Source: Candidatus Zixiibacteriota bacterium (GTDB lineage Bacteria > Zixibacteria > MSB-5A5 > UBA10806). From it: DNA of 51,040 bases. The stretch lies in the NCBI GenBank assembly GCA_024641335.1, contig JAHEDG010000018.1, forward strand, positions 1 to 51,040, read 5' to 3'. The notes under the pieces are model-generated. The model ran no database searches. It saw nothing but the letters and a program-made list of their open reading frames with translations, and was not told the DNA's origin. The position numbers and the translations under genes were made by a program. The number at the start of each line of letters is the position of its first letter. Positions within the stretch are counted from its first letter, which is position 1. Below are positions 5,450-7,036 of the stretch, in pieces.

Positions 5450-6508
5450 CTAAAAATAAGTTACATGGCTCGAATTACGGAAATTCACAGCCTGGAAATT
5501 AGTCATTTTGCGACGGGCGTTGGAATCGGTATCGAACATCAGGTTATCCGTCGGGCTGACATGCCATAGTCCGCAGGCATGCCCGGACTCATGAGCGATG
5601 GTCGTCTTGTCGGTCGTCTCCGTCCCCACAACTGTCACGTAGTCGGTGAGAATCGCCATGGAACATCCGGTCGCCCCCGCCATACTCCGCACCACAAAGA
5701 CCGTGACCGGACCGCCGTAGCGCAAAAGCCTTCGGGCATTACCGAGGAAGCAATGCCTCGACATGAGAATATTAAACTCCGAACCGGCCATCCATAGATC
5801 TTCGAGATAGCCGCTTCCGCCGCAATGAACATCGAGCACGTCGTCTTTGCTGACAGAATCGACGATATGAATAAACGAATCATCGGCGGGCCTGTCGTCG
5901 CTAAACGGCGTAGTCGAATTGAATATGGAAACCGGGATCAGCCGGACATTGGCCTCCTCCCGGAAAATTTCTATAGCCGCCTGCACTTCCTCTATAACCA
6001 TCGCCGAATCGGCGACCGGACCCTTTTCGTCCCGGAGTATAATCACGCACATTCGCAGCTTTTTTTCCGGCCTGATCCCGATAACCCAGGCCAAAGCGTC
6101 AATCAAACCGAAGAATCTGTAAAACAGTTCTGTCAGGATTGTCCACAGCTGCTTGAGTAATCGCCCTAATATCGGGATAGAGAAAATCACCTCGAGGACA
6201 AAATCGATGAAGCTGATGATGACCCCGACGATAACGCTGATCGCCTCTATTATGATAGAAACAACAGTGACCACAACCTCCCAAACCAAGCAAACCACCG
6301 TTGTGATATAAGTCCAGGCCACGCAGACCACGTTGGATACCCAATACCAGGCCACGCAAAACCAGGACAGGATTTTGCATCCCCATGAACAGGGCCACCA
6401 ATCGCAGCAATCCGAATCCCATCGAGCACAGCTATTGTATCCCTGATCGCGGTACTCGGCGCACTCTTTTCTGGTTTCCTCTCCCCACTCGACACATCTT
6501 TTAGACAT
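5450..6508 (-). CDS. Metzincin-type zinc protease with Cys/Trp-rich 11-residue repeat
   Basis: The 352-aa protein ends in a zinc protease domain. HESGHACGLWH (His306, Glu307, His310, His316) is the extended metzincin motif, and NLM (322-324) a few residues later is a candidate Met-turn. The first 85 residues are rich in Cys and Trp (CARWDSDCCDWWPC) and then contain three tandem 11-residue units, CVAWYWVSNVV, CVAWTYITTVV and CLVWEVVVTVV (51-83). A hydrophobic stretch (about 80-145) follows that could lie in or on a membrane. No classical signal peptide is seen. The start is ATG 6508. Its neighbour is a two-helix membrane protein 96 nt upstream on the same strand. Substrate and role are unknown. 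Confidence 0.7.
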   Translation of the reverse strand: MSKRCVEWGEETRKECAEYRDQGYNSCARWDSDCCDWWPCSWGCKILSWFCVAWYWVSNVVCVAWTYITTVVCLVWEVVVTVVSIIIEAISVIVGVIISFIDFVLEVIFSIPILGRLLKQLWTILTELFYRFFGLIDALAWVIGIRPEKKLRMCVIILRDEKGPVADSAMVIEEVQAAIEIFREEANVRLIPVSIFNSTTPFSDDRPADDSFIHIVDSVSKDDVLDVHCGGSGYLEDLWMAGSEFNILMSRHCFLGNARRLLRYGGPVTVFVVRSMAGATGCSMAILTDYVTVVGTETTDKTTIAHESGHACGLWHVSPTDNLMFDTDSNARRKMTNFQAVNFRNSSHVTYF

Positions 6509-6604
6509 ACCTCTTCCCCCTGTGGATTTTCAAACGACTATGAAATTCGCTCGAAACAAATATCGAAGATAGCTTCATCAGATACCCTCCCCTCGACGAT
6601 CAGG

Positions 6605-7036
6605 CTAAAAAAACGGTTTATTCAGCAGCCCGCGAACAGTTTTTTTCAGATTTTTCCCGGCCAGGGATATTCCCAGCCCCTTACCCAAAGCGGCCGACAG
6701 CAAAATGAATAGCAGGCTACAACCGATATCCGCCCAGCCAACGCCAAAAATTCCACCGGGTTTCGCGACGAGGTAAATTATCGCCGACACCATCGCCAAT
6801 GATGAGGCTATAGCCCCGGAGGCGCAGCCGCAATCGTAGAAATATCTATTTAGTTTCCGTTCCAATAATCTTTTCTCATCAGCGTCGATCTTTTCGATTT
6901 CCACTACAATCCGGCCCCTGCCGGGCAGCATCCTCGGCCTTCCGCTCGACAGCAAAGCCTCGAAATCTTCTCGGCTGGCCAGTATAATCGGGGGCCTGGC
7001 CTCAGTACGTATCATGGCCTGATCCGTTATCCTCAT
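6605..7036 (-). CDS. Small membrane protein with two C-terminal helices, unknown function
   Basis: This 143-aa protein is not recognised. Residues 1-65 are soluble and charged, followed by a YDCGCASGA motif (67-75). Two hydrophobic segments then occur (about 74-92 and 102-118), with a basic tail (KNLKKTVRGLLNK). The ATG at 7036 has AAGG upstream; Met8 is an alternative. It precedes the metzincin-like gene on the same strand and could be its membrane partner, or an anchor or immunity-type protein, but nothing in the sequence proves that. Confidence 0.55.
   Translation of the reverse strand: MRITDQAMIRTEARPPIILASREDFEALLSSGRPRMLPGRGRIVVEIEKIDADEKRLLERKLNRYFYDCGCASGAIASSLAMVSAIIYLVAKPGGIFGVGWADIGCSLLFILLSAALGKGLGISLAGKNLKKTVRGLLNKPFF

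Follow-up and report, generated by a model that had tools for sequence, protein, structure and literature searches.

The two-gene cassette and its relatives

The window analysed here, a stretch of 51,040 nucleotides from a Candidatus Zixiibacteriota bacterium (contig JAHEDG010000018.1), carries a two-gene cassette on its minus strand, to which all window coordinates below refer. The large gene (5450..6508), translated from its open reading frame (ORF) into 352 amino acids, codes for a hairpin module joined to a metzincin-like enzyme, and the partner gene (6605..7036, 143 amino acids) lies upstream of it at a distance of 96 bp. Most parts of this locus had been recorded in an initial annotation of the DNA: three CVAW-type units of 11 residues lie exactly where it had put them (residues 51-83), the hydrophobic region following them is present and extends to about residue 145, the intact HExxHxxGxxH motif with a Met-turn was found again as HESGHACGLWH and NLM, and the small membrane protein with DCGC, said to precede the large gene on the same strand, is the 143-residue partner with its two hydrophobic segments. 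Its remark that no named family could be recognised also holds, as Pfam, NCBIfam, PHROG and PADLOC gave no convincing family. The cassette is a real, conserved and unclassified two-gene unit, and what is new here is a separable N-terminal module, its equal arms with mirrored cysteines, and the joint loss of mirrored cysteines.

Relatives were collected by a single scan across 84,980 species genomes, followed by searches of whole genomes. The combination of the repeat with a zinc protease, which the initial annotation had thought worth seeking elsewhere, occurs in full-length relatives across distant bacteria, namely Chloroflexi (L002), Zixibacteria (L003), Allomuricauda (L004), Nitrospirota (L005), Rhizobium (L006) and Desulfobulbaceae (L007), while relatives sharing the N-terminus only were found in Mycobacterium (L008) and in an Aenigmarchaeote (L009). 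The whole-genome searches added a member of the family of the window's genome (L011) and a second Allomuricauda (L036). The cassette is known from at least six bacterial phyla, and it is rare. Counting the starting genome in each case, the gene family is present in 3 of 132 genomes of the window's own phylum, in 1 of 349 of the Mycobacterium order, in 1 of 297 of the phylum of L007, in single genomes of the orders of L004 (1/246) and L006 (1/249), and in 2 of 73 of the genus of L004, with one gene copy per genome. The window protein shares 65-70% identity with the copies from Chloroflexi and Bacteroidota and only 47% with L011 from its own family. Because copies from distant phyla are closer to it than this relative, horizontal spread of the cassette would be the natural reading.

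A predicted helical hairpin built from two 11-residue ladders

The N-terminal module consists of two ladders of 11-residue units (hendecads) separated by a turn. In the polar arm (residues 5-33, 6410..6496), hendecads of the type CxEYRDxGYNx place Cys at residues 5, 16 and 27; the arm, delimited by the ladder count, lies within a helix (residues 3-37) of the AlphaFold2 model. Here the initial annotation had seen a Cys/Trp-rich head, which is indeed present, but the description was incomplete, since this head is a second 11-residue ladder of matched length. The turn region CCDWWPCSWGC (residues 34-44, 6377..6409) is followed by the apolar arm (residues 51-83, 6260..6358), evident from the sequence and the ladder count, with Cys 51, 62 and 73 in three hendecads of the type CVAWxxxxxVV: CVAWYWVSNVV (51-61), CVAWTYITTVV (62-72) and CLVWEVVVTVV (73-83). 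Further hydrophobic helices (residues 84-145, 6074..6259) are found in the protease forms and are absent from the archaeal form. The periodicity is strong, as self-identity at a lag of 11 over residues 1-90 amounts to 19 matches, whereas 20,000 shuffles gave 5.6 +/- 2.2 on average and 17 at most.

In the window protein, the cysteines mirror each other about residue 39, forming the pairs 5-73, 16-62, 27-51 and 34-44, each of which sums to 78. The AlphaFold2 model comprises a helix at residues 3-37, a turn at 38-41 and a helix at 42-109, with block means of the predicted local distance difference test (pLDDT) of 67-83 over residues 1-80, and its turn coincides with the symmetry centre of the cysteines. 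Residues 1-83 are therefore predicted to form an antiparallel helical hairpin, and the repeat would be one arm of it rather than a stand-alone membrane stretch. From residue 56 onward, mean Kyte-Doolittle hydropathy is above 1.6 in most windows. When calculated by hendecad position, the hydropathy moment points toward the Cys side in the polar arm and away from it in the apolar arm. The Cys faces of both arms are enriched in Gly, Ser, Thr and Cys and are turned toward each other, whereas the outer face is charged in the polar arm and built of Val, Trp and Ala in the apolar one. The module has no Pfam or NCBIfam domain, including any recognised trafficking or pre-toxin domain, it corresponds to no family in PADLOC or the PDB, and PHROG returned only weak tape-measure matches to the hydrophobic stretch of the large protein. 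The similarity to ATP-synthase c-subunits that Foldseek returned for the hairpin was set aside as generic for helical hairpins.

Comparison among homologs adds that the two arms change their length in step. When the cysteines of the ladders are counted to either side of the CCxWWPCSW turn, polar and apolar numbers are equal in 9/9 complete homologs: 3/3 in the window, L002, L004, L007 and L011, 4/4 in L003, L006 and L008, and 6/6 in L005, the counts of L007 and L008 depending on the assignment of their innermost pair, which coincides with the turn cysteines. If the arm lengths were dealt out at random, all nine would agree in 5!3!1!/9! = 0.2% of cases, a value that ignores kinship. In the Nitrospirota copy (L005), both arms are longer by three units than in the window, and each holds its own 33-bp tandem array, with unit identities of 91-100% in the polar and 85-97% in the apolar arm; from such separate recent arrays it follows that the arms lengthened independently and ended up equally long. 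In the divergent L036, the repeats are decayed and the mid-arm cysteines lost, yet the remaining ones (5-74, 31-48 and 36-43) each sum to 79, a mirrored placement near that centre which random placement produces in 0.3% of cases. Inter-arm disulfide pairing is likely, because mirrored cysteines were lost together and because the enzyme also holds conserved cysteines. Hairpin arms that change length in step are a direct and readable record of the contacts between residues. In the archaeal gene (L009:1-1884), perfect 33-bp tandem copies (CAEKREKRKKV) occur in the charged arm and the gene runs off the contig; arm symmetry would predict two more units upstream.

Hendecads favour straight coiled coils, and the hydrophobic units could instead assemble into a transmembrane coiled-coil oligomer that serves as a pore or a stalk, with the charged arm as a mere extension, the enzyme displayed on one side and the partner as an ordinary subunit. 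The high hydropathy from residue 56 and the fixed hendecad positions of Trp and Cys agree with such an arrangement. However, it leaves unexplained the unit-for-unit match between the charged and the apolar arm and the mirrored cysteines of L036, a length of 33 to 66 residues per arm does not fit a single membrane thickness, and AlphaFold2 gives a hairpin, so we consider it unlikely.

The enzyme domain as exchangeable cargo

Homolog alignment and profile searches delimit the metzincin-like enzyme domain at residues 146-352 (5453..6073). Sequence and alignment place in it the zinc-binding motif HESGHACGLWH (residues 306-316, 5561..5593) and the Met-turn NLM (residues 322-324, 5537..5545), and the alignment further reveals a conserved C-terminal tail RxSxHVTY(F/L/I) (residues 344-352, 5453..5479). 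Four cysteines (154, 229, 253 and 282) are kept in 9/9 protease-type homologs, which would favour an oxidising compartment. The HExxHxxGxx(H/D) motif is conserved in most homologs, with Asn for Gly in L006 and L007, and the Met-turn in 8/9 protease-type homologs, the loss being in L011. The HExxHxxGLxH motif and the Met 8 residues past the third His are as in matrixins such as MMP3 and karilysin, whereas beyond the motif region nothing matches the rest of the domain, the four invariant cysteines or the HVTY tail. Likewise, Pfam gave weak, sub-cutoff matches to Reprolysin_5, Matrixin and Astacin, and the family profile matched metzincins in the PDB around the motif region alone (best E 0.035). 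On account of the zinc motif, membership in the metzincins is likely.

The enzyme is not the constant part of the large protein. In Mycobacterium (L008), the same N-terminal module is joined to a GDPD phosphodiesterase (Pfam E 8e-20), with the partner still present, and in the Aenigmarchaeote (L009) it is joined to a hydrolase-like domain with a GFSRGG nucleophile-elbow-like motif, for which the motif alone was found and no enzyme family match. Judging by these sequences, the hairpin and the partner are the constant parts and the protease is one exchangeable cargo. The membrane-associated or self-inserting protease pair of the initial annotation therefore stands as a pair, but is too narrow as a description, the protease being one of several cargoes.

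The partner protein

The AlphaFold2 model of the partner (pLDDT 74) contains a small β-α-β-α part at the N-terminus, the CGC motif and two membrane helices, with a basic C-terminal tail behind them. According to the partner alignment, CGC (residues 69-71, 6824..6832; DCGC at 68-71 in the window) lies at the mouth of the first transmembrane helix (TM1; residues 71-91, 6764..6826), which was placed by hydrophobicity and the model. The second (TM2; about residues 101-121, 6674..6736) carries an LGKxxGL motif, and its helix runs to residue 138 in the model. The other partners are 20-34% identical to that of the window, with C69, G70, C71 and G122 invariant in 9/9, and no convincing relative was found in Pfam, NCBIfam, PHROG, PADLOC or the PDB. 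The gene pairing suspected earlier proved to be conserved, as the partner adjoins the large gene in 9/9 loci with intact flanks (the window, L002, L003, L004, L006, L007, L008, L011 and L036). It comes first in most loci and second in L006 and L007, and the reading frames overlap in L007, L008 and L036. No partner is visible in L005 and L009, whose large genes both lie near contig ends. Across the loci, whose neighbours were inspected for secretion-system linkage and for metal genes, there was no constant neighbour besides the partner. Since the partner stays when the enzyme changes, it is likely a dedicated helper of the hairpin.

A proposed disulfide-zipped carrier of hydrolases

On sequence comparison, the separable module, the exchangeable enzyme, the gene pairing, the equal arms and the mirrored cysteines may be taken as established. 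Our reading of the whole, to which we give slightly less than an even chance, is a mobile two-gene cassette composed of a disulfide-zipped hairpin carrier of exchangeable hydrolases and a CxC membrane partner. Residues 1-83 would fold as an antiparallel hairpin whose arms are zipped by the Cys pairs 5-73, 16-62, 27-51 and 34-44, thus exposing one charged and one oily, Trp-rich outer face. With two such faces the hairpin would be amphipathic and could adhere to or enter a membrane, carrying the zinc protease, GDPD phosphodiesterase or hydrolase-like domain with it; the two faces fit a closely packed hairpin of this kind, which would also explain how its length can vary without constraint. The partner's membrane hairpin may hold or insert the oily arm, and by analogy with Mia40 its CGC could possibly undergo thiol-disulfide exchange with the cysteines of the large protein's hairpin. 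The Mia40 CPC acts on twin-CX9C hairpins, CX10C variants included (PMC3848088), and the disulfide potential of CGC peptides is -167 mV (PMC2672033). The large protein could possibly act as an antagonistic effector delivered to a target membrane, as the analogy with toxins may suggest.

The twin-CX9C (CHCH) proteins and Mia40 (PMC3848088) share with the cassette an antiparallel hairpin, mirrored Cys pairs of similar spacing, hydrophobic residues near the cysteines, and a distinct partner protein that bears a CxC motif beside a hydrophobic surface. However, those hairpins are mitochondrial, of about 10 kDa and with two pairs, whereas here they are bacterial and enzyme-fused, have 3-6 C-X10-C pairs, and combine one charged with one Trp/Val-rich arm. 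The two C-X9-C pairs defining the twin-CX9C family are missing, no CHCH match was found in Pfam or the PDB, and the partner differs from Mia40 as a two-transmembrane protein with CGC before its membrane hairpin, having no Pfam or PDB relation to it. Plant alpha-hairpinins (MBP-1, PMC6273665), some of them antimicrobial, are likewise disulfide-stapled antiparallel helical hairpins, but short CX3C-type peptides devoid of repeat ladder, enzyme and partner gene. As in polymorphic toxins, among whose payloads are peptidase and GDPD domains (PMC3482391), a constant N-terminus precedes variable C-terminal hydrolases (metzincin-like, GDPD, hydrolase-like); in contrast to them, the cassette lacks any known trafficking domain, any secretion genes and an immunity gene specific to the payload, and has a constant partner instead. 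The 11-residue helical periodicity is shared with hendecad coiled coils, from which the length-matched, cysteine-mirrored antiparallel arms differ. To our knowledge, such arm pairing of hendecad repeats has not been described before. No hendecad membrane or toxin family was found in the literature covered, which did not include the hendecad survey of Martinez-Goikoetxea and Lupas, where the repeat could be listed. By the tests made, the cassette lies outside the CHCH, Mia40 and polymorphic-toxin families and the PADLOC defence families, and it resembles a disulfide-zipped hairpin carrier in its way of working.

Several observations weigh against this reading. No signal peptide or secretion genes were found that would explain how the protein reaches an oxidising compartment, there is no immunity-like gene and no evidence of toxicity for the cassette, and by positive-inside reasoning CGC faces the cytoplasm, in which it is expected to be reduced. 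The AlphaFold2 model of the large protein was built from 7 input sequences and came without coordinates for Cys-Cys distances, and the joint loss of mirrored cysteines fits metal pairs or simple packing as well. Furthermore, the enzyme domain is poorly modelled, with pLDDT below 50 across the active site, and Foldseek with both predicted models gave nothing meaningful, so that from the metzincin-like protease proposed initially the active-site motif and the Met-turn stand, while the fold is not established. In L011 (L011:1501-2442) the motif reads HEISHALGLWD, with Asp for the third His and the Met-turn lost, a departure from the canonical zinc motif, and in L036 (L036:937-1887) the third His is displaced from its usual place; these altered ligands could reflect decay or, on the model of snapalysin, ligation by Asp.

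A bolder version, which strikes us as improbable, regards the cassette as an independently evolved prokaryotic counterpart of the Mia40/twin-CX9C disulfide relay, in which the CxC membrane protein zips or unzips a Cys ladder of variable length and this redox switch times the entry of the oily arm into the membrane together with its hydrolase. If the carrier is real, it would be a new hydrolase carrier module with its own helper, distributed across distant bacteria and perhaps archaea, and a compact bacterial model for how a CxC protein zips helical hairpins, a reaction best known from mitochondria.

The sporadic, horizontal and single-copy distribution, the exchangeable hydrolases and one Allomuricauda copy (L058) that neighbours McrBC-type restriction genes as well as an IS21 element would also suit an intracellular two-gene anti-phage defence, in which the partner senses the redox or membrane state and the large protein is a membrane-targeted executioner. 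Such a system is nevertheless distinctly unlikely, as neither protein has a convincing PADLOC match, the window and most loci are placed among core metabolic genes, and so many conserved cysteines would be surprising in cytosolic proteins.

Metal binding is common among CxC motifs. Given this and the zinc enzyme cargo, the mirrored Cys pairs could bind metal, for example two-coordinate Cu(I), or Zn together with the CGC partner, in a metal-handling or metal-activated membrane hydrolase, and twin-CXnC hairpins do include metal-transfer members (PMC3848088). The same hairpin and partner, however, serve a GDPD enzyme lacking the metzincin zinc site, and metal genes are not constant neighbours at the loci examined, which makes this very improbable. 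A toxin with its cognate immunity protein, the two-helix partner protecting against the protease, is suggested by the small adjacent membrane gene and the frame overlaps at some loci, but hardly probable, because immunity directed at one enzyme should be replaced along with that enzyme, whereas the partners of protease and of GDPD cargoes are homologous.

Genomic surroundings

Virus and plasmid records gave no indication of carriage of the putative carrier cassette: no relatives were found in IMG/VR or phage records, PHROGs giving only the weak tape-measure matches, nor in PLSDB, whose matches in one search were ordinary GDPD genes, all these searches being possibly less sensitive to the repeats due to low-complexity filtering. 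In the window, the cassette is flanked by a ferredoxin/lipB group and by a metallophosphoesterase, and core metabolic genes also surround it in most other loci. In Allomuricauda, the homology of four relatives ends at L004:7206-7239, before the cassette, but the other flank is rearranged, leaving no clean empty site. Slightly upstream of the Zixibacteria cassette there is an ORF of 85 amino acids of no known family (L003:7032-7286), and two long ORFs (728 and 1068 amino acids) without Pfam or PADLOC match lie beside the Desulfobulbaceae cassette (L007:9589-15342). The sole defence-like neighbourhood seen is that of the Allomuricauda cassette at L058:3567-6633, located between an IS21 helper gene (IstB) and the McrBC-type restriction genes.
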